DNA of 50,796 nt from contig JAJRRC010000050.1 in the NCBI GenBank assembly GCA_024279865.1, positions 1 through 50,796 on the forward strand. The letters are read 5' to 3'. Positions 7,818 through 46,486 of the stretch are shown piece after piece. Position numbers and translations under genes: made by a program. Within the stretch, counting starts at the first letter, position 1. Each line of letters opens with the position of its first letter. Source of the DNA: Planctomycetota bacterium (GTDB taxonomy: Bacteria > Planctomycetota > Phycisphaerae > Phycisphaerales > Phycisphaeraceae). The notes under the pieces were generated by a model that saw only the letters and a program-made list of their open reading frames with translations, was not told where the DNA came from and did no database searches.

Positions 7818-10800
7818 TTGAGCCTACAATCTAGAGTTGTGAGATTGCATTTTCTTCAATTTGCGTGGTTGGCTCTTGGGTTTTTCACCCTGGGTGCTGC
7901 TGCGCCTTTGGCTCGGCCGATTTATTTGGATGATTCACCTGCGGTGGTGGACCTGGTGACCAAGGCCAAGCGTCTGGGTCGTCAACAGCGTTTCACCGAA
8001 GCAGTGACTGAATACCAAGCAATCATTGAGAAGCACGGGCACAAACTTATGCCACGGGAAGTGCGATCCTTCGGAGGAACTTCTGGGAAAAGCGTGAGCA
8101 ACTTTTCCGAAAGTCCCCCCGGAAGTACCGGGGGAAGTACCGGGGAAAGTACCGGGGGAAACTTCCGGGGGGACTTCCGGGGGGACTTCCGGGGGGACTT
8201 CCGGGGGGACTTCCGGGGGCGGGGGAGGAAGGCCAGTGTTTATACCGATGCGGCTTGCTGGGTCACCCGTCTAATTCGCGAGGATTCAACGCTCTTAAAC
8301 GCTTACCTCAATCGCTTTGAATCCCAGGCCAAACGCGAGTTGCAAGAAGCCTTGGCCAGCTCTGACCCACTGTCTGCCCTGCAACGCATGCAGCACCGAT
8401 TTGGACTCTGCGAAGCTGGCCTTGAAGCAGGTTTAATTCGCGTAGCTCTCTTACTTGAACGTGGCGAACCCGCAACAGCCAACAACGTGCTTTATTCTTT
8501 AAAAAACCACCCACGACTCCCATTGCATCAAGCCCAATACAACGAGTCCTTGGCAGCCTGTCGTGTCCTGCTCGGCCGCAGCGTCGAGACCCTCAATCAA
8601 ATGCTGGATGTCAACGCACAAACCCGAATTCGCCAACTAGAACAATCATTCACCCAACCACAAACAGAACCCATCTTCACCCTCACCCCCCCCGGAAGTT
8701 CCGGAAGCACCCCCGGTCCCCCCAAAAACACGTTAGGCAATCAAGCTCCCGTGTTGTGGCAATGGGAGAACAAGAACAAACGCACATTGCCACCCACTGG
8801 ACGCATCCGGCGATCACGCAACCTTCAACCTGTTAAAAAGTCTTCATCCTTACAGCCGACGGTACGGGGCGATTGGATTTTCGTGAACGACGGCCAAACG
8901 ATCTGGTCCATTGACCGCCTGGCGGGTCGGGTCTTGTGGCAAAGCCGAGCAGGCCGCCCTTTAACCTCAGTGACTCAACTAGGCAGACAGGAAATAGACG
9001 AACCACGTGGCGTTGCTGTCGACGATGAGGTCTTGGTAGGCATCCTTGGCCAAACGACTCAATGGTCCCTCCAACGTCAACTAAAACAGCCCCCCACCGA
9101 ACTGGTCTGCCTCTCACAAACCACGGGCCAATTGATCTGGAAAAAACAGCCCACGGATATTGACCCCACACTGACCGATGTGTTTTTCCATGGCACGCCT
9201 ATCATCGACTCGCAACGAATCTATGTCCTGATGAGACGCAATCAACGGTCAGGATTTCACAGCGCCTTTGTCGCAGCAGTCAAACGATCCAATGGCCAAC
9301 TGTTGTGGAAACGGCATCTCGCCAGTTCAGCCATCGAACGCATGCGCCGACAAGTGGTCCTTGGACGCATGACCGTGGTCGATGGACAAATTTATATCGC
9401 TGACAACCTAGGCGCTCTGACATCCATCAACGGCCAATCAGGTGATATCCATTGGCTCCATATCCTTCAAGCCAGTGACCCCGCCAACGCCTCAACAAGA
9501 CAACAAGTCAACCTCTTGCCAAGACCCGCCCCACTGGTCACAAACGCTGGCGTACTGGTCCTGCCTGCCATGGACGGCGAACCCACGCGACTGCTAGATC
9601 GACAGACAGGCAAACAAATTCAACAACTTACCACCAAAGGTTGGACCCGGACCGATCGCCTCACACTCACCAGCCAAGGCATCCTCAGCACCAGCCATGT
9701 CATCCGCATGTTCAATGCCACGGACCTCACGCTCAAATGGGAACACCCACTCCCCCAAATCCAGGCAAGCCAACCCGTCATCCTCGGCAACCGTGGCTGG
9801 TGGCGTACGACCTATGGCCTACAGTGTTTGTCTCTTGAAGATGGGCATCGCATGACCTCATCGCCCCGATTGCCCGCGGGGGCTATCTTGGCCTTGAAAG
9901 ATCAGATAATCATGGTTTTAGAAAACCAATTGCAATGTCTCATGCTCCCAACCCAAGCCTATCAACAACTCCTTCGCCGCATCGAACAACGCCCGGCCGA
10001 CCCACAAGCAGGATTGACACTTTCGCATTTGGCCTCGCAACAACAGCAATGGGACATCACCCTCAAAGGCATTGATGCTTCGATCCAAGCACTTGAATAT
10101 TCAAACGAACAAAGACCCCCGGAAGCTAAGAGAACCGAAGGGGTATTCGGGGAAACCGGGGAAACTTCCGGGGAAACTTCCGGGGGGACTTCCGGGGGCG
10201 GGGGCGGGGGAATGCTGGCTCATACTGCTGTGTTTGACCATATCCGTTCACTGGTGGAATCCAACACCGCGTCGATCGACAGGCAAACACGCATGGCCTT
10301 GTTCGAACGACTCGCCATTGCCACAACCACCCCGGCAAACGAAGTGGCCTATCAATTTGCACGCGGTGCCTTTTTACAAAAAGAAGGCGACCACCCAGCG
10401 GCCGTCCAGCACTACCAGAATGTATTGGCAGACCCGACACTGGCCTTGGAACTCTATCACCATCCCCATGGCTCACGCCAAGCGAGGGTGGAAGCGATGT
10501 TGCGACTCAAAGCGATTCTCGAAAAACACCCCCAAGCCTATCGTCCCTACGAACAACAAGCAGCCCAACAATTACAAGCACTCCAAACAACTTCTCAAAC
10601 AAACACCCAAGCATTGCTAACTTTGGCGTGGACGTATCCACTGGCTCCTGAGAGTATTCACGCTCGACTGATCGTCGCGAAGCGTTGGATCGCTCAAAAA
10701 AAAGGGGGGCAAGCCATCGACCAGCTTCGTGAAACTTGCCGCCTGGCACAAATGCCCAATATGTTCAATCAAGCCAAACAGGCAACAGGCTTACTCACCT

Positions 10801-13934: not shown

Positions 13935-15542
13935 TTATTGATTCAGTACATCAATTTGCTGAGGTTCCATTACCTGCAGCTTCAAGGCACTATCATAGCG
14001 GGCTTCACCGACGATGCCCACCACTTGGCCAAGATGTTTCACCCACAAAACATCTTTTTTGCTAACTCGAACATAATACAGGGTCACCCTTGTATCTGCT
14101 GGATTCACCAAACGATAGAGCCTTGGCAAGCTCGTGCCATCATAGACAGAACTGGTTAACAACTGCCCCACCACATCGTAGTTCTGGTTGACTGGTGATG
14201 CCACGGGCGCAGAAGGCGCAGCTTGAATCTGGATCGATCCCTGAGCATCGGTGATGCTGTTCAGCGCTTGCGCCAAGCTGGCATCCCGTCGCAATTGCGC
14301 CAAACGTGCTGCGACGATTCGTTGATCGCCGATGGGCAATCCCTTGATGCCCACCAGTTTTTGATAGGCCTTGATCAAGGCATCAAACGGCCGTTTGTCT
14401 AAAGACATTTGATGGGCATCGATCATGCTTTGTTCGACATCCTTAAGAGCTTGGCTTTTGGCTTTGAACCGCATTCGGTCGCTGCCAGCAAGTGCCGGAG
14501 GCAAAACTTTGGGGGTTGTCGATACTTTGGGTGCAACCGGGGGAACCGGGGGAGCCGGGGGAGCCGGGGGAACCGGGGGTGTTGAAACCACCACGGGCAA
14601 TGTTGTGGGGACCGGTTTCACCACTGCTGTGACGGAAGGCTTTGTCGTCACCACGGGCAGACGTTTCACCGCAGGCTTCGCTGATGCAGTCACCCCTGGC
14701 AAAGGTCGGCTGATCCGAATGGGACGTGGTGTTGCAGATGGAACCGAAGTTTTAGGCGCTGGGGAGGCCACCGGGGGGACCGGGGGTGCCGGGGGTGCCG
14801 GGGGTGCCACTACAGGGAGCGTGGCCTTGGCGACGGGCAGAGGTTTGGTTACAGGGCGAACGGATGGAACGACTTTGCCTGTCACGGGCCGAGTTGTCGC
14901 AAGGGTCAAGGGCTGCGTGGTGGGCTTTGGAACAATCGCCTTGGTGACTTTCACTGCGGGAAACGTGGTTGGCAAAGCGGGTGTTTTTACAGCAACCGGG
15001 GCAACCGGGGGAGCCGGGGGAGCCGGGGGAACTGGGGTAAATTTCGCAGGTTTGATGGCACTGATCGGGATATACACATACGCGCCTTTGGGTGGAATAA
15101 TTTTGTAATACCAGCCCTCTTCGCCCACGATTTTGACGATGTCACCCTTAAGCAAATTAACCTGGCGTCGAAAGCTATCGCCGGGTCCGTTGAGGCTTGC
15201 GCTTTTCACAGCGGCCCGGGTTTTATTCACGATCCCGGTTTTGCCATCACCCTTGGCATCGACAAACGCGCGGGAGACGTAGCTGTAGACCCCCTTGGGT
15301 GGCAGGATTTTGTACCAGTCGAAAATCTTTTCATCGACATGGACCGTCGCCCCCTTAGGCAATTTCCCTACCACATAATAAGCGGTTCCCGCCCCAGCAC
15401 GCACTGCGACATGGTCTTCAATGACCATGCCTGGGAAGGGATAAGATGATTGAGCAAATGCTGGCGTTAACCAAAGCAAGCCCATTCCAAAAAAACATAA
15501 TTGCAGGATGCCTATCCTGCCTTTGCCGCCCGCTGATCGCAT
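13935..15542 (-). CDS. Secreted protein with two SH3-like domains and a long Pro/Ala/Val linker
   Basis: Start at ATG 15542 is supported by GGAGG 6 nt upstream (535 aa). A signal peptide (FFGMGLLWLTPAFA) is followed by two bacterial SH3-like domains: about residues 35-95 (VAVRAGAGTAYYVVGKLPKG) and 110-165 (LLKGDIVKIVGEEGWYYKI). Each ends with a PPKGxYxYV turn. From about 170 to 350 the chain is Pro/Ala/Val/Lys-rich, with three PPAPPAPPVPPV blocks that correspond to G-rich repeat arrays in the DNA. The C-terminus is globular, with a SH3-like strand set (TLYYVRVSKKDVLWVKHLGQVVGIVG). Probably a cell-wall-associated binding protein; the ligand is unknown. Confidence 0.82.
   Translation of the reverse strand: MRSAGGKGRIGILQLCFFGMGLLWLTPAFAQSSYPFPGMVIEDHVAVRAGAGTAYYVVGKLPKGATVHVDEKIFDWYKILPPKGVYSYVSRAFVDAKGDGKTGIVNKTRAAVKSASLNGPGDSFRRQVNLLKGDIVKIVGEEGWYYKIIPPKGAYVYIPISAIKPAKFTPVPPAPPAPPVAPVAVKTPALPTTFPAVKVTKAIVPKPTTQPLTLATTRPVTGKVVPSVRPVTKPLPVAKATLPVVAPPAPPAPPVPPVASPAPKTSVPSATPRPIRISRPLPGVTASAKPAVKRLPVVTTKPSVTAVVKPVPTTLPVVVSTPPVPPAPPAPPVPPVAPKVSTTPKVLPPALAGSDRMRFKAKSQALKDVEQSMIDAHQMSLDKRPFDALIKAYQKLVGIKGLPIGDQRIVAARLAQLRRDASLAQALNSITDAQGSIQIQAAPSAPVASPVNQNYDVVGQLLTSSVYDGTSLPRLYRLVNPADTRVTLYYVRVSKKDVLWVKHLGQVVGIVGEARYDSALKLQVMEPQQIDVLNQ
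14534..14580 (-). repeat. 9-nt ACCGGGGGA/GCCGGGGGA array in the SH3 gene, block 1
   Basis: Five or more tandem 9-mers on the + strand, encoding PPAPPAPPVPP on the coding strand. The unit has the same length and CCGGGGGA core as the array right of tRNA-Leu. It contains four runs of five G spaced by 4 nt, fitting a G-quadruplex motif on the + strand (the non-coding strand). Confidence 0.85.
14769..14808 (-). repeat. 9-nt CCGGGGGTG array in the SH3 gene, block 2
   Basis: Four tandem 9-mers (ACCGGGGGG, then GCCGGGGGT repeats) encoding APPAPPVPPV. Slightly diverged from block 1. Confidence 0.8.
14993..15038 (-). repeat. 9-nt GCCGGGGGA array in the SH3 gene, block 3
   Basis: CAACCGGGGCAACCGGGGG followed by AGCCGGGGG repeats, encoding VPPAPPAPPVAPVA directly after the second SH3-like domain. 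Confidence 0.82.
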
Positions 15543-28362: not shown

Positions 28363-30039
28363 ATGGCAAACACTTCGGCCCAATCAGGTCCTAAAATCCT
28401 CATCGTCGGCGGCGTTGCAGGCGGAGCCTCCACCGCAGCACGAGCCCGCAGACTCAGTGAAAACGCACAGATCATCATGTTCGAACGAGGCCCACACGTC
28501 TCATTCGCCAACTGCGGGTTGCCCTATTTCCTTGGCGGCGAAATCACCCAGCAAAGCAAACTACTTGTCCAAACGCCCCAAGCACTCTACGACCGCTTTC
28601 GCATCGATGTTCGAACCCTCAGTGAAGTGACCGCCATCGACCGAGAAGCAAAAGAAGTCACCATCTGCAACCTTCAAGACAAGCAAACCTATACCGAGTC
28701 CTATGACCATCTGGTCCTTTCCACCGGCGCGTCCCCCCTGGTCCCGCCGATCCCGGGCATCGGTAAAGAAGGTCAATTCACCCTGCGAAATGTGGTCGAT
28801 ACCGAACTCATTGACCAATGGATCAAAAACAAAAAAGCACAACGGGCCATCGTTGTCGGCGGTGGATACATCGGCCTGGAAATGGCTGAACAACTCCGCC
28901 ATCGAGGCCTCGAAGTCGTCCTCGCCGAAGCACTCCCACAAGTTATGGCGCCCATGGATATGGAAATGGCCAACATCCTCCATCGCACCTTACGAGACCA
29001 TGGCATCGAACTCCACCTAGGCGACCCCGTTGCCTCCTTCGAATCCAACGGCAACGGAACCACCCTCGTTACCCTTAAAAGTGGAACCCGACTCGGAGCG
29101 GACCTAGTCATCTTGGGCCTAGGTGTCAGACCTGAAACCAAACTCGCACGCGAGGCAGACCTCACCCTCGGCGAACGCGGCGGCATCCGCGTCAACGACC
29201 ACATGCAAACCAATGACCCCGCCATCTTCGCCATCGGCGATGCCATCGAAGTACGCAACCGCGTCACCTCCCAATGGTCTCTGGTCCCACTGGCGGGACC
29301 CGCCAACCGACAAGGACGCATCGTCGCTGACAACATCTTCGGCCGCGACGCGACCTACAAAGGAACCCTCGGCACCGCAGTCCTGCGACTGTTCGAACTC
29401 TCCGCAGCCTGCACCGGTATCAACGAACGGACCTGCCAACAAGCAAACATCCCCTATGAAATTGTCCACCTGCATCCGAACCACCATGTGGGCTACTACC
29501 CCGGGGCCAAACCCATTGCCCTCAAACTGATCTTTGCCCCCGACACTGGCAAAATCCTCGGCGCCCAAGCCGTCGGTGAAAAAGGGGTCGACAAACGCAT
29601 CGACGTCATCGCCACGGCCATCCTCGGAGGCATGACCGTAAATGACCTTGCTGAACTGGAATTGGCCTACGCGCCACCTTTCGGTGCAGCCAAGGACCCG
29701 GTCAACCTCGCAGGCATGGCCGCTCAAAATATTCTGGCGGGCGATGTCGCTGTCATGCAGTGGCATCAAGTCCAATCACTGGACCTTGAAAAAACATTGA
29801 TCCTCGATGTGCGTGATGACCCTGAGCGTGCTGCGGGACATATCCCCAACACCATTCATATTCCCTTAAATAATTTGCGGGACCGACTCACGGAATTGCC
29901 CAAAAACAAACAAATTCTAGTTCATTGTCAGTCTGGTCAACGGTCGTATTATGCGTGTCGTATTTTGAGCCTTCATGGCTTTCAGTGCGCTAATCTCACC
30001 GGTTCATACAAAACATGGAAAATGGCACAGACAAACTGA
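28363..30039 (+). CDS. FAD-dependent CoA-disulfide reductase fused to a rhodanese domain
   Basis: 558 residues. FAD motif ILIVGGVAGGASTAARARR (12-30); redox Cys51 in SFANCGLPYF, the single-cysteine active site of CoA-disulfide reductases and related persulfide reductases. A second Rossmann motif RAIVVGGGYIGLEMAEQL binds NAD(P)H, and FAIGDAIE closes the FAD site. The dimerisation domain has MTVNDLAELELAYAPPFGAAKDP. Residues 470-555 are a rhodanese domain with catalytic Cys522 in VHCQSGQRS. This is the CoADR-RHD architecture, linked to disulfide/persulfide/polysulfide reduction in the cytoplasm. An SD-sequestering hairpin precedes it. Confidence 0.93.
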   Translation: MANTSAQSGPKILIVGGVAGGASTAARARRLSENAQIIMFERGPHVSFANCGLPYFLGGEITQQSKLLVQTPQALYDRFRIDVRTLSEVTAIDREAKEVTICNLQDKQTYTESYDHLVLSTGASPLVPPIPGIGKEGQFTLRNVVDTELIDQWIKNKKAQRAIVVGGGYIGLEMAEQLRHRGLEVVLAEALPQVMAPMDMEMANILHRTLRDHGIELHLGDPVASFESNGNGTTLVTLKSGTRLGADLVILGLGVRPETKLAREADLTLGERGGIRVNDHMQTNDPAIFAIGDAIEVRNRVTSQWSLVPLAGPANRQGRIVADNIFGRDATYKGTLGTAVLRLFELSAACTGINERTCQQANIPYEIVHLHPNHHVGYYPGAKPIALKLIFAPDTGKILGAQAVGEKGVDKRIDVIATAILGGMTVNDLAELELAYAPPFGAAKDPVNLAGMAAQNILAGDVAVMQWHQVQSLDLEKTLILDVRDDPERAAGHIPNTIHIPLNNLRDRLTELPKNKQILVHCQSGQRSYYACRILSLHGFQCANLTGSYKTWKMAQTN

Positions 30040-31217: not shown

Positions 31218-31257
31218 GGAACTTCCGGGAAAACTTCCGGGGGAACTTCCGGGGGGG
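31218..31257 (+). repeat. Left array flanking tRNA-Leu
   Basis: GGAACTTCC units separated by GGGAAA and GGGGG, ending in seven G. Bases 31237-31257 are the exact reverse complement of 31419-31439, so tRNA-Leu sits between two arms of a perfect 21-bp inverted repeat. Confidence 0.9.
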
Positions 31258-31326
31258 ATGATTTTACGAGGTGTTTCGTGTAAAGTGTGCACGTTCTGTT
31301 AAAGAACTTAGCGGTCAAAGTGGTCT

Positions 31327-31411
31327 GGCCCGGTGGCGGAATCGGCAGACGCGACGGACTTAAAATCCGTTGACCATTATGGTCATGTGGGTTCGAGTCC
31401 CACCCGGGCCA
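31327..31411 (+). tRNA. tRNA-Leu (anticodon UAA)
   Basis: Acceptor GGCCCGG (31327-31333) pairs fully with CCGGGCC before discriminator A at 31411. The anticodon arm is ACGGA-CTTAAAA-TCCGT with UAA at the centre. A class II variable arm (TGACCATTATGGTCA) and T arm GTGGG-TTCGAGT-CCCAC are present. CCA is not encoded. Confidence 0.97.
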
Positions 31412-31417
31412 TTTTGA

Positions 31418-31490
31418 CCCCCCCCGGAAGTTCCCCCGGTTCCCCCGGTTCCCCCGGTTCCCCCGGTTCCCCCGGGGAAGTGACCCACAC
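31418..31490 (+). repeat. Right array flanking tRNA-Leu
   Basis: Eight C, GGAAGTT, then five TTCCCCCGG units of 9 nt, ending GGGGAAGTG. It begins 7 nt after the tRNA. The minus strand carries repeated GGGGG spaced by AACC, a clear G-quadruplex pattern. It may act as, or replace, the terminator, as no other terminator is visible. Confidence 0.92.
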
Positions 31491-37864: not shown

Positions 37865-37890
37865 GCGTGCGGCTTCTATGAACGTTCAAA
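37846..37890 (-). repeat. Hairpin repeat family H, short copy 3, overlapping the rdgC stop
   Basis: Minus strand: GAACGTTCATAGAAGC, then CGCACGCTTACAACGTGCGCG, a hairpin equivalent to those at 16420 and 22185. It supplies the last five codons and the stop codon of rdgC, in opposite orientation to the gene. Confidence 0.65.
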
Positions 37891-37909
37891 ATAAGCGAAA
37901 GCCTTTAAC

Positions 37910-37960
37910 ATTCATCTGTCGCGTTCGCAAAGAATTCGACTCTTCAGAGTTTGGCGTTGT
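37910..37960 (+). repeat. Dispersed GAATCCGACxCTTC repeat, copy 4
   Basis: ATTCATCTGTCGCGTTCGC then AAAGAATTCGACTCTTCAG. The left 17 bases are identical to 12389-12405. Like the other copies it lies in a gene gap, here between rdgC and rnpB. Confidence 0.65.
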
Positions 37961-38017
37961 TTTAGCCGCAAACATCCTTGCGCCTAGGGGCGCGTCTGCA
38001 AAAGAACCAGGGGTTTG

Positions 38018-38120
38018 CCCCCCCCGGAACTTCCGGAAAGAAACACCAGAGAAAACTTTGGGGATAAATTTCCGAGGTAACTTCCGGGGGTACTTCCGGG
38101 GGTAACTTCCGGGGGGGGAA
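38018..38120 (+). repeat. Array on the 3' side of rnpB
   Basis: CCCCCCCGGAACTTCCGG, a spacer, then TAACTTCCGGGGG and TACTTCCGGGGG units ending in eight G and AA. Bases 38103-38120 are the exact reverse complement of 38487-38504 on the other side of rnpB. Confidence 0.9.
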
Positions 38121-38488
38121 TGTAAGCCGAATTCTGTTCTTGTCCTGAAGGACAAGGGCGACCATTTCTCTAGGCCTCACGTTGCCATGAGGCTCAAGCA
38201 ACCTACCCGTCCCATAAGCCGGACCGACTCTGAGGCAAGCCTCGGGACTGCTTGGTCTTGCACGCGGTGGGGTTTACCGTGCCCACGCTGTCACCAGACG
38301 TGGCGGTGCGCTCTTACCGCACCATTTCAACCTTACCTGTGCTGCACGAGGCAGCCATCGGCGGTATCTTTTCTGTGGCACTGTCCCTAACTCGAATCAA
38401 CGAGCCGGTGGGTGTTACCCACCACCGTGTCCTGCCGTGTTCGGACTTTCCTCCTGACCCAAAAAATTGAATCAGGCGGCCGCCGCTT
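38119..38488 (-). ncRNA. rnpB: RNase P RNA (bacterial type A)
   Basis: On the minus strand: a hairpin CTGATTC...GGGTCAG (P3-like), the universal GAGGAAAGTCCG followed by AACACGGCAGG (CR-I), GGGACAGTGCCACAGAAA (CR-II/III region), a CGGTAAGAGCGCACC stretch, GTAAACCCC, and the 3' region GGGTAGGTTGCTTGAG with ACAGAATTCGGCTTA. Ends are approximate. The outermost helix (P1) would be formed by GGGGGGGGAA and TTCCCCCCCC of the flanking repeat arrays. It is the catalytic RNA that matures tRNA 5' ends. Confidence 0.96.
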
Positions 38489-38563
38489 CCCCCCCCGGAA
38501 GTTAACCCCCGGAAGTTAACCCCCGGAAGTACCCCCGGAAGTTACCCCAAAAATTTGCCCCCG
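38487..38563 (+). repeat. Array on the 5' side of rnpB
   Basis: TTCCCCCCCCGGAAGTTAA then CCCCCGGAAGTTAA, CCCCCGGAAGTA and CCCCCGGAAGTTA units. It occupies the place where an rnpB promoter should be, so the promoter either lies beyond about 38565 or within the array. Confidence 0.9.
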
Positions 38564-38620
38564 GCTCCCAGAACCCGGGATTTTTCTCTGGGTTATTTTA
38601 CATCTGTGACTGTTTTTTTT

Positions 38621-38665
38621 CAGACGCGCAAGCAAGTTTGCTTGCAGCTACTTTTAAACGATCTG
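38621..38665 (-). repeat. Hairpin repeat family H, short copy 4
   Basis: Minus strand GATCGTTTAAAAGTAGC, then hairpin GCAAGCAAACTTGCTTGC and GCGTCTG. Against 16455-16500 the stem changes CACGC/GCGTG to CAAGC/GCTTG, keeping pairing. It is 38 nt downstream of the HEAT gene, in its orientation. Confidence 0.75.
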
Positions 38666-38702
38666 TTTTTTGCTATCTGCCAAGAGCCCATTGTTCCCCT
38701 GA

Positions 38703-40859
38703 TTAGCGAGCGATCATCTGCACCACATGTGATGCAGGCAAGGTCAATCCGCCGTGGGCTCGAGCGGCAGCGTGAGCGAGGTCGCCTTTACTTTGACGAA
38801 CAATTTTCAGGAGGTTTTCAATTTGCAACTCATTGAGTTTGTTACCAAATCCGGTGGCTGATTTGGCCAAAGAGTTCAGCAATGCCACACGGATTTTTTT
38901 ATCTCGCGTTGAGTCCATTGCCGCATCGGCAATGGCTCGCTGGGCTCGGGTTGAATCAAAGAGAGCTAAAACCTTGGCGGACTTCACCACCACACTGGGA
39001 CGTGCATCGTTGAGGGTGCTAATCAGGGCAGGCTCTGCTTCGACTGCTTTGAATACGTGGCCATGCCCGATGGCGATTTCCCAAAGCATGTCCAGCGCAT
39101 CATTGGCAAACTTGGCTGCTTCTTTGGCATTGATTGGGTCGCCGGCATAAGCTTTGATCGCTTTGCCTAGAACACCTTTTAGTTCACTGGCTTTTTGGCC
39201 TGAAAGCAAAGGGAAGATAGTGGGTTGATTTTCGAAGAGGGCATTGATTTGTGCCAAGTCCGCAGAGTTGGCAGTCAAGGCAAGCATCGGAGAAGCGACG
39301 AGTTTGTAGTTGTTGCGTCGAGCACGATTGGCTTCAACGATGCCATCGACGGTACTAGCGACGACGATCAGGTCCACGCCGGGGCCTGCACTGATGGCAT
39401 CGGTCACATCATCAATCATTTCGCCCGCAGCAGTTTTGTAGCCGAGCTTGGCTCGCAGGACACCTGCAAGGCGATTGGCGGTTGTCATATCATCTGCCAA
39501 AACGACGGCAAAAGGTTTGTCCGTCTGGCGAATCGCTTCGGTCAGCACAGGAACCACACGGTAACTACCCACGAACGGTTCTGAGGGGCGAGCTTGTCCC
39601 ATGGTCAATGCTGCATTGAATCGCACCCGTCGATCTGGATAGCTCAGTGCAGCGATCAAAGGTTGGATCGTGCCATATTGATTGACCAGCGCATCGGTTC
39701 CTGCCGTGGCCTGCAAGGCGTTAATCGCATCGAGAGCTAGGACGTGGTCGTGATCATCCAATGCTCTTTGAAGCACGTCATGCTGTCGCAACGGCCCTGC
39801 TGTTTTGAGATAGTACGCGGCATCGAGCCACTTGCGAGGATAGCTGGGGTCCTTGGCACCTTTGGGCATTTTGTTTTCGCGTGAAAGGTTTGCCGCCAGC
39901 CACAGACTTAAAGCTGGGGACATGTGCGGATTCAGCAGCATGGCCTGCCGGGAAGCTCGCATCGCCAGGATATAGCCAAACACCCGGCCGGGGACCTGCG
40001 TGGAGAGAAGCCCTTGGTGGCGACCGAATTTCCACACAAGACCCTTTTGGTCTGAAGGATCAAAGCCAGGCAACGGTTCATTGCCGACGGCAGCATCATA
40101 ATGATTCTGCGCCAGGGTCATGAACAGCTCGGCTGCTTCAATGTGCGGAGGCACGCCTGCGATATTAGAAAGATGGCTATAAGCGGACTGCACCGTCTGC
40201 TTGGCGGTGGGATCGGTTTTGGGATTTTCAATCACTTCCTTGAGATAAGGCAGCGAACGGGGGTAGCCGATTTCCGCCAAAACACGAGCGACCTGGCCTT
40301 GGGCGATAGGTTCAAGGTCATTGATCGCTGAAGCGAGGGGATAGACCATCGGACGACCCACTGCGACCATGGCGGCCATGACGTAAGGATGCAAATGTTG
40401 TTTGGCATCGTCGCGTAAGATTGCCAGTAAGGCTGGGGCAGCAAACTGGCCTGCTGCCTGGAGGCGTTGGGTGGCATTGTGATTGGCGCGCATGCCTTGG
40501 GACAGTTTTTTGATATCAGAAGCAATTCGCTGTGGGTTGCGACTGCGTTTGATCTGGGCGAATTGAATCTTTTTGGACAGGGCCTTGGCGACCTTGGTGA
40601 GTGATTCAATTTTTTGAGCGCGGAACAGCGTCTTGTCGTACTCGGTGTAAGTACTGGACTCGACAATGTCCAACAATTTTTGGTCATTAAGTTTGAGTAG
40701 CTGCTGACCTAGCTTTTTAGCGAGGTCCGGTCGGGCAATCAACACATGATGGTTGAAGTCCTCCCACATCGCTTTTTGGGCTGGGGTTTGAGCGTACACT
40801 GCCTGAGATAAACTCAGGCCGGCAATTAGAATCAACGCAACGCGCATCGCTTTGCTCAT
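38703..40859 (-). CDS. Secreted HEAT-repeat protein with a receiver-like insert
   Basis: ATG 40859 has AGGAGG 8 nt upstream (718 aa). Signal peptide (VALILIAGLSLSQAVYAQ). Helical HEAT pairs run through most of the protein (AAPALLAILRDDAKQHLHP, RVRFNAALTMGQARPSEPF, RPSVVVKSAKVLALFDSTRAQRA). At about residues 430-520 there is a Rossmann-like segment (FAVVLADDMTTANRLAGVL, then GVDLIVVASTVDGI) resembling a response-regulator receiver domain with acidic DD, but outside the cytoplasm, so phosphotransfer is unlikely. HEAT scaffolds of this kind are typical of planctomycetes; the partner is unknown. Confidence 0.8.
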   Translation of the reverse strand: MSKAMRVALILIAGLSLSQAVYAQTPAQKAMWEDFNHHVLIARPDLAKKLGQQLLKLNDQKLLDIVESSTYTEYDKTLFRAQKIESLTKVAKALSKKIQFAQIKRSRNPQRIASDIKKLSQGMRANHNATQRLQAAGQFAAPALLAILRDDAKQHLHPYVMAAMVAVGRPMVYPLASAINDLEPIAQGQVARVLAEIGYPRSLPYLKEVIENPKTDPTAKQTVQSAYSHLSNIAGVPPHIEAAELFMTLAQNHYDAAVGNEPLPGFDPSDQKGLVWKFGRHQGLLSTQVPGRVFGYILAMRASRQAMLLNPHMSPALSLWLAANLSRENKMPKGAKDPSYPRKWLDAAYYLKTAGPLRQHDVLQRALDDHDHVLALDAINALQATAGTDALVNQYGTIQPLIAALSYPDRRVRFNAALTMGQARPSEPFVGSYRVVPVLTEAIRQTDKPFAVVLADDMTTANRLAGVLRAKLGYKTAAGEMIDDVTDAISAGPGVDLIVVASTVDGIVEANRARRNNYKLVASPMLALTANSADLAQINALFENQPTIFPLLSGQKASELKGVLGKAIKAYAGDPINAKEAAKFANDALDMLWEIAIGHGHVFKAVEAEPALISTLNDARPSVVVKSAKVLALFDSTRAQRAIADAAMDSTRDKKIRVALLNSLAKSATGFGNKLNELQIENLLKIVRQSKGDLAHAAARAHGGLTLPASHVVQMIAR

Positions 40860-40994
40860 CAAAACGACCTCCTGTAACGGACTTAAATCTTTTCAATCAC
40901 GAAGCCTTCAACTTCTTTATCGGATCAGTCTGTGATTGTCGTGCAGCTAATTGGAAATAAAATCCCAATGGGCAGCCGCGTGACAACACACCTG

Positions 40995-45151: not shown

Positions 45152-46486
45152 ATGACTGACATCCTTCAAAACGTCAAAAACCTTTACGAGCAGCAACCCT
45201 ATCCGCTGCCTCCAGCCCATCTCAATGAATTCGTAGAGGGCAAACTTTTCCCTGCCGGCTCGCCAACCGATTATTTTCATCTGTATTGGCCTGATCAACC
45301 TTACCGTGAAAACCTCGACATCCTCCTCGCTGGATGCGGAACAACCCAGCCCGCGGAATTTGCCATCAGCAATCCCAACGCCAAAATCGTCGGCATTGAT
45401 CTCAGTCAAAACAGTTTAGACCACGCCAAACGCCTGCTTGACCAACACGGCTGCACCAATGTGACCCTCCACTGCCTGCCCATCGAACAACTCGACCAAC
45501 TTGATCAAACCTTTGACCTCATCGCAACCTCAGGCGTTTTGCATCACATGGAAAACCCCGCAGCAGGCCTCGCTTCACTAAACAATGGCCTCAAGCCCAA
45601 CGGCCGCCTGTTCTGCATGGTCTATGCGACCTATGGCAGACTCGGCGTTTATATGTGGCAAGACTACTGCAAAAAACTAGGCATCGGACTTGAAAATCAA
45701 GATTTTGATGACCTGCGAGCCGTCCTCAACCATTGCCCCATAGACCACCCGTTTGTCCCACTGGCCAAACGGTCAACCGATCTGCAATCCAATTCGGGCA
45801 TTGCTGACCTATTGCTACATCCGCAAGACCGATCCTACACCGTGCCTGAATTGTTCGACTGGATCGAAGGGGCAGGCATGACCTTTGACCGATGGTTCTT
45901 GCAAGCCACCTATTTGCCACAATGTTCGATCCTGTCCCAAACACCCCATGCAGACAAACTCGCAGCCTTGCCGTTGCGTGAACAATACGAAGCTGTCGAA
46001 CTATTCCGAGGCAACCTACACAAACACACCTTCATCGCTTCCCCCCCCGGAAGCGCCCCCGGAAGCGCCCCCGGAAGTACCCCCGGAAGTACCCCCGGAA
46101 GTACCCCCGGAAGTACCCCCGGTCGCTCCCTTGAAAACGCCTCCAGCAATCTCCCCCCTAAAACCTCTCGCGGTCAAACAACACCTCGAATCCATTTCCG
46201 GGGGGAAAACTGGAAACAATACAAACCCATTCGCTTTCGAGGCATTGGAGCAAACACCGACAACCTCCCTGCTGGCAAACTCGTCAGGCTCCAACAGGCA
46301 GCCCACGAATTTCCCATGCTCACCCCTTATCTAGATGATCAGACCATCGGCATGTATCAGGCCATCGACCAGAACAAAACCCTAGGCCAAATTGCCAAGG
46401 ACCACCCGCAAACCAAAGCCTTCTTCAAAATGCTCTGGGATTTTGACCAAGTATTCTTCAAAGTAGAGACAACCCATGCCAAATAA
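45152..46486 (+). CDS. Class I SAM-dependent methyltransferase interrupted by a repeat array
   Basis: 444 residues. SAM-binding motif LDILLAGCGTTQPAEFA (about 52-68), IVGIDLSQNSLDHAKRLL, and FDLIATSGVLHHMENPAAGL (motif IV/post). The catalytic domain ends near residue 290. A Pro-Gly-Ser tract from the DNA array 46039-46124 follows, then a second GC unit at 46195-46209. The C-terminal 75 residues (FPMLTPYLDDQTIGMYQAID) appear to be a separate helical piece that normally continues the protein. The first residues (QQPYPLPP) are like those of methyltransferases acting on peptides or lipids. The substrate is unknown. It overlaps the next gene by 11 nt. Confidence 0.82.
   Translation: MTDILQNVKNLYEQQPYPLPPAHLNEFVEGKLFPAGSPTDYFHLYWPDQPYRENLDILLAGCGTTQPAEFAISNPNAKIVGIDLSQNSLDHAKRLLDQHGCTNVTLHCLPIEQLDQLDQTFDLIATSGVLHHMENPAAGLASLNNGLKPNGRLFCMVYATYGRLGVYMWQDYCKKLGIGLENQDFDDLRAVLNHCPIDHPFVPLAKRSTDLQSNSGIADLLLHPQDRSYTVPELFDWIEGAGMTFDRWFLQATYLPQCSILSQTPHADKLAALPLREQYEAVELFRGNLHKHTFIASPPGSAPGSAPGSTPGSTPGSTPGSTPGRSLENASSNLPPKTSRGQTTPRIHFRGENWKQYKPIRFRGIGANTDNLPAGKLVRLQQAAHEFPMLTPYLDDQTIGMYQAIDQNKTLGQIAKDHPQTKAFFKMLWDFDQVFFKVETTHAK
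46039..46124 (+). repeat. 12-nt CCCCCGGAAGTA array in the methyltransferase gene
   Basis: Eight C, GGAAGCG, CCCCCGGAAGCG, then four or more CCCCCGGAAGTA units. It encodes (APGS/TPGS) repeats. The unit differs at only two positions between halves (GCG or GTA), suggesting recent tandem duplication. Confidence 0.92.
46195..46209 (+). repeat. Single inverted unit in the methyltransferase gene
   Basis: TTTCCGGGGGGAAAA, the inverted form of the array 70 nt upstream. It encodes HFRGENW. With a single unit, chance is possible. Confidence 0.5.

Follow-up and report, generated by a model that had tools for sequence, protein, structure and literature searches.

STRRs are tandem heptamer repeats. They have been reported within rnpB, the RNase P RNA gene, of heterocyst-forming cyanobacteria (Vioque 1997, by title), while palindromic elements (RPE) have been reported in the tmRNA and the M1 (RNase P) RNA of Rickettsia (PMC2229807, in excerpt, citing Ogata 2002). 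REPs are found at gene ends, and some supply the stop codon of neighbouring ORFs (PMC3733652, in excerpt).

We analysed a 50,796-nt stretch of Planctomycetota DNA (the window), which is contig C68 of a draft genome of 3.42 Mb (122 contigs, 95.7% complete). Its rnpB is bordered on both sides by arrays of a dispersed repeat with the consensus C5-9 GGAAGTT, often in tandem arms of 12-14 nt. RPE are dispersed palindromic repeats tolerated intergenically, in frame in proteins and in RNA genes including that of RNase P RNA (PMC2229807, in excerpt). The present repeat is like them in its distribution: copies lie between genes, within ORFs and in RNA genes, among them rnpB, both here and in 8 of 52 relatives. 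RPE, however, are single elements of 105-146 bp within a gene, whereas the tandem arms of 12-14 nt described here lie at both gene ends and, by model alignment, pair as the helix P1. The family also resembles REP/BIME, which are high-copy, short palindromic repeats, in its copy number and its place at gene ends, but REP/BIME are GTAG- or CGTC-tagged and the unit CCCCCGGAAGTT carries neither tag (unit and ends read C5-9 GGAAGTT), is abundant inside ORFs and has C/G homopolymer ends. STRRs lie inside the gene, whereas in the present rnpB both P1 strands come from the repeat, and the array periods found in the window (9, 12, 13, 14 and 26; TRF) do not include a heptamer. We know of no STRR that replaces P1. 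Titles and abstract openings in the open-licence literature gave no account of a P1 made of repeats or of this repeat family. Repeats inside rnpB are already known from Rickettsia and cyanobacteria; a P1 built from two repeats is a new variant.

Outermost helix of rnpB

The features at and around the gene are listed below.

38107-38496, minus strand: rnpB, RNase P RNA class A (full-length RF00010 match, 286.5 bits, E 1.1e-92)
38486-38496, minus strand: P1 5' arm GGGGGGGGAAG, RF00010 model positions 1-11
38111-38122, minus strand: P1 3' arm, C, a bulged A, then UUCCCCCCCC (RF00010 alignment)
38103-38120, partner 38487-38504: perfect 18-bp inverted repeat, exact match
38076-38103, partner 38519-38546: 28-bp exact inverted repeat further out; no other exact inverted match of the two flanks is longer
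38018-38118: repeat element on the rnpB 3' side, with a C8GGAA arm at 38018 and then a G-oriented array at 38076-38118, whose last G8 is one half of P1
38489-38548: C-oriented array on the 5' side of rnpB, in which the first C8, G8 on the minus strand, makes up the other half of P1
37990-38007, partner 38612-38629: weak outer inverted repeat, 16/18 complementary, possibly by chance
38595-38623, minus strand: weak promoter-like CTGAAA-17-TAAAAT, the sole one in 37880-38720 (shuffles: mean 0.3, sd 0.7)
38007-38027, minus strand: weak terminator-like hairpin, partly from the G8 run of the element

The rnpB match covers positions 1-367 of the 367 in RF00010 and scores 286.5 bits against a gathering score of 100, as for a class A RNA. 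It is the only copy found across all contigs, and its core is intact in the model fit. P1 has standard pairs at 11 of 11 positions, a closing helix that is present and built of repeat sequence. In the RF00010 alignment, pairs 1-8 are the G8 and C8 runs that end the two arrays, and these runs continue into the array units CTTCCGGGGGGGG and CCCCCCCCGGAAG. The model alignment thereby shows the outermost helix of rnpB to be formed by two copies of a dispersed repeat, one at each end of the gene.

The sequence-only reading had proposed a perfect 18-bp inverted repeat at the rnpB ends, with G8/C8 where P1 belongs, and arrays that either inserted exactly at the ends of the RNA or were recruited as P1. 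The complementarity of 38103-38120 and 38487-38504 is indeed exact, and the covariance fit sets all 11 P1 pairs flush with the inverted repeat. The arrays likewise directly adjoin the RNA, and P1 is made by the first units of each, an arrangement seen in 0 of 50 relatives. An ordinary P1 further inside, within 38125-38480, was not found; the model P1 consists of 38486-38496 and 38111-38122.

Array periods at rnpB are 13, 14 and 26 (TRF), and the arms 38060-38116 and 38506-38562 are 82% complementary across 57 nt. The outer inverted repeat (37990-38007/38612-38629) was rejected as a firm feature and kept as a weak one, its alignment score being matched by 2 of 300 shuffles. A shared order of units hinted that the two arms were mutual copies; this was also rejected, as their similarity is no higher than that of unrelated arrays (left-right score 82; right arm against the array at 46103, 85; best other score of the left arm, 75).

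In the predicted fold of 38005-38590 (586 nt) P1 extends outward with a z-score of -8.8 relative to shuffles, part of the low folding energy being guaranteed by the inverted repeats themselves. With equal flanks, folding predicts 71 leader-trailer pairs outside the rnpB match here and 38 or fewer in each of 50 relatives. P1 is also lengthened by leader and trailer at loci L113 and L115 (rnpB of G064 and G066), in both without the repeat; G066 has 38 outer pairs.

We consider it probable that a high-copy repeat ended by a C run took over rnpB at either end, reaching as far as the last few base pairs of P1, a history that would include a longer transcript, trimming and an array-mediated flip of the gene. 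As the repeats spread in the genome, stopping where functional sequence begins, they would have reached both ends of rnpB. With the C run facing the gene and the repeat reading outward, two copies would meet as G8...C8 and pair. The complementary repeat ends would act as a self-compensating substitute for the outer part of P1, restoring at once what was lost, and the ribozyme may tolerate the change because such ends compensate themselves. Transcription would start from a promoter outside the arrays and give a longer primary transcript in which P1 continues as a long double helix, to be trimmed by an RNase III-type or other nuclease. It counts against this reading that the arrays could be cut back to leave an ordinary P1 of 8-11 bp. 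How the events were ordered, how the RNA is processed and how the gene was flipped are inferred. Such a history would show how selfish-looking repeats can turn into structural elements of an essential ribozyme, since outward-facing repeats give complementary ends and invasion of a structured RNA at both ends would thus compensate itself. The locus may also serve as a natural experiment on how far RNase P RNA tolerates loss or gain in P1 identity, leader and trailer.

Repeat family and its orientation at gene edges

With at most one mismatch, CCCCCGGAAGT occurs 32 times in the window, compared to a mean of 1.06 and a maximum of 4 in 100 shuffles, and the exact repeat unit occurs 440 times in the genome, compared to 0 for the reversed control. 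An 11-mer of the repeat is present in 46 of 51 family genomes. The 14-mer version is present in 23 of 45 family genomes and in 6 of 106 others of the order. All 16 named stretches carrying three tandem units come from Phycisphaeraceae MAGs, from which we take the present genome to resemble that family. Inside long ORFs of the window, arrays of the repeat or close variants (9-nt AACCGGGGG) were noted at 8116-8219, 10116-10198, 14535-15037 and 46044-46122, with periods of mostly 9 or 12 and one overlapping row of 13 (TRF). Periods of 9 and 12 in ORFs, as against 13, 14 and 26 at rnpB, are as expected if the reading frame limits array growth.

Cluster and orientation statistics were taken from an 845-kb sample, about one quarter of the genome, and the ORFs used for orientation counts are crude in-house calls, both here and in the relatives G015 and G061. 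The sample holds 264 units in 167 clusters, of which 80 are intergenic, where the genic fraction would lead one to expect 31, and 87 lie in predicted genes. Every cluster within 20 nt of a gene edge reads CCCCCGGAAG outward (33/33, p 2.3e-10); these comprise clusters at 29 predicted ORFs, tRNA-Leu, tmRNA and the two ends of rnpB. The same rule within 20 nt recurs in G015 (7/7) and G061 (16/16), which reveals strict orientation in a repeat family of Phycisphaeraceae-like bacteria. Beyond 20 nt from gene edges no orientation preference was seen in this genome (23 outward, 24 inward). Of 20 opposite-facing neighbour pairs within 200 nt, 18 have the order C then G that a hairpin element would give, and many copies are single-armed; the 18/20 skew was not reproduced in G015 (3/6) or G061 (2/3).

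Near-gene clusters lie mostly at 3' ends (25/33 here, 6/7 and 14/16 in two relatives). A C run of 7-9 directly adjoins stop codons and tRNA flanks elsewhere in the genome; 28 genes have a C5+GG run within 4 nt past the stop, with zero gap in 18. The stop is TAA in 25 of the 28 array-adjoining genes, compared to 338 of 625 overall, and apart from TAA at stops no target-site consensus of the element was found.

The strict outward orientation within 20 nt, the preponderance of 3' ends and the direct contact with stop codons all suit arrays that are regulatory or insulating elements (3' end protection, termination or a promoter boundary), of which rnpB happens to have one at each end, with pairing as P1 a by-product. 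Since 87 of the 167 sample clusters lie within predicted genes and orientation preference ends beyond 20 nt, we regard a regulatory role as possible but doubtful. It is compatible with the takeover of P1 by repeats, which we prefer.

Bracketing of tRNA-Leu and other RNA genes

31218-31475, plus strand: tRNA-Leu (taa) and flanking arrays, G-oriented upstream and C-oriented downstream

The arrays at tRNA-Leu occupy 31218-31255 and 31430-31475, and a C8 run begins at 31418. The sequence-only reading had spoken of two essential RNA genes with the same bracket in one window. The bracket at tRNA-Leu is real in sequence, but it is not a terminal tRNA helix, because the upstream arm stops about 70 nt before the tRNA. 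The claim that two such brackets in one window are unlikely by chance is not supported, in view of the outward rule (33/33) and of rates that fit independence. Because near-gene arrays read outward, a G...C bracket is automatic wherever arrays lie on both sides, and the bracket of tRNA-Leu, which follows from that rule, is not special. In the 845-kb sample, 1 of 620 ORFs and 2 of 18 RNA genes are bracketed within 100 nt, while about 2.0 and 0.7, respectively, are expected by hand calculation from one-sided rates. Bracketed RNA genes as a special class were rejected on these numbers, which are near the one-sided expectation, and two brackets in one window are a mild coincidence.

Genome-wide, 1 of 43 tRNAs is bracketed; 5 of 43 have an array upstream (31218-31255, L078, L145, L147 and L148), all G-oriented and 45-71 nt away, and 1 of 43 has one downstream. 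By eye, several of the upstream arrays end near -35-like sequence. At the tmRNA locus (L149) a single CCCCCGGAAGT unit, facing outward, is found at a distance of 19 nt from the gene's 5' end. SRP RNA was considered as a third bracketed RNA and rejected, as no exact CCCCCGGAA unit lies within 1.3 kb. An Rfam match to V_AS7, a Vibrio antisense RNA, was found at 28409-28577 (109.1 bits). It runs antisense to a gene for a pyridine nucleotide-disulphide oxidoreductase/rhodanese and is probably conserved protein-coding sequence rather than RNA.

rnpB termini in relatives

The comparison covered 52 rnpB loci of relatives, 50 of them full length (40 from the same family and 10 from the same order, none from the same genus). 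The partial genes of G004 and G045 were excluded from the P1, -10 and leader-trailer counts, the fragmentary matches of G023, G052 and G063 were left out, and the rnpB matches of the order-level genomes G025, G028, G032, G036 and G038 lie outside the comparison. The model search gave no rnpB match in G013, G017, G024, G048 or G065.

P1 is well paired in the relatives (pairs 3 and 4 are standard in 50/50) and its 5' arm is already G-rich, pairs 2, 3, 5, 7 and 8 being most often G-C. Seven of the 11 pairs here are the relatives' commonest pair, while pairs 1, 4, 6 and 10 differ on both sides. As just 4 of 11 pairs depart from the commonest pair, G8/C8 is close to a normal P1. A run of six or more G in the P1 5' arm was found in 0 of the 50 full-length relatives, and none has a P1 built of repeats.

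A -10-like box whose end lies 2-12 nt upstream of the rnpB match is present in 44 of 50 relatives, compared to 19 of 849 background windows, suggesting that the match start is near the transcription start. In this genome the ancestral -10 position is overwritten by the array: the -10-like TAACTT 2 nt upstream of the match, scored as this genome's hit, is array sequence. The nearest promoter-like site lies about 100 nt upstream of the match and is weak. Terminator-like hairpins lie within about 100 nt of rnpB in 32 of 50 relatives. A displaced terminator was sought here and rejected, as the criterion used on the relatives finds none and another criterion gives 38027-38007; terminator-like sites in 37880-38720 number 6, compared to a shuffle mean of 1.5. 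The arrays stand in place of the relatives' promoter and terminator.

The G-rich P1 arms of the relatives would suit a P1 that drifted to G8/C8 by ordinary compensatory change, with the arrays outside the mature RNA and processed off, so that nothing was taken over. This is unlikely, as G8/C8 is continuous with array units, C runs of this kind (7-9 nt) also border stop codons and tRNA flanks at other loci, none of the 50 relatives has such a G run in P1, and the array overwrites the ancestral -10 position.

Orientation of rnpB beside the HEAT-repeat gene

38703-40862, minus strand: HEAT-repeat protein gene (Pfam PF13646; tblastn), single copy in the genome

The HEAT-repeat gene was found by tblastn at 27 of the relatives' 52 rnpB loci, always downstream of rnpB and convergent with it (27/27); its absence at the remaining loci says little because the flanks are 1.5 kb or shorter. 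Here it lies upstream, on the 5' side of rnpB, and on the same strand. The orientation of rnpB relative to this neighbour is reversed compared to the relatives. At 30 relatives' loci the longest ORF upstream of rnpB falls into a single protein cluster, and in 29 it is divergent from rnpB. A homologue of this upstream neighbour lies on contig C95 here, and since it has moved as well, there was more than one rearrangement.

Most simply read, the inversion affected rnpB alone, next to the HEAT-repeat gene, with arrays at both ends of the segment, and recombination between the inverted arms may have turned it. The similarity of the two arms does not exceed that among other arrays, and the flip is known from one genome, the 50 other family genomes compared including none of its genus. 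A flip of the core alone would leave the ancestral promoter to the left of rnpB, reading along the plus strand; this was rejected, as the scan found no plus-strand promoter there. That rnpB is an invertible cassette, flipped by recombination between the facing repeats, with its own P1 arms as inversion sites and, since P1 is made of those repeats, an intact ribozyme in either orientation, we think quite improbable; if true, inversion of an essential gene would cost it no function. An assembly artefact, in which the assembler joined the rnpB core to repeats or flipped it between them, is very improbable: the draft is fragmented (122 contigs) and rich in repeats, and the arrays are found just where the gene is flipped and its termini are odd, but the flanks share no exact inverted match longer than 28 bp, below the k-mers usual in assembly, the repeat is also found inside rnpB of other genomes, and the core pairs perfectly with the arms.

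Repeats inside rnpB of relatives

Among the 52 relatives' loci compared, takeover of P1 is seen in none and is confined to this genome. The repeat unit nevertheless lies within the rnpB match in eight of them (G006, G011, G045, G047, G049, G061, G064 and G066). In the model alignments the inserts fall in helices, which we take to be P3, P9, P12, P16/17 and P19 in class A nomenclature, and are mostly complementary arms or hairpins. In rnpB of G061 (L117) the unit occurs at four to five internal places, once as the hairpin CCCCGGAAG-UUCG-CUUUCGGGGG.
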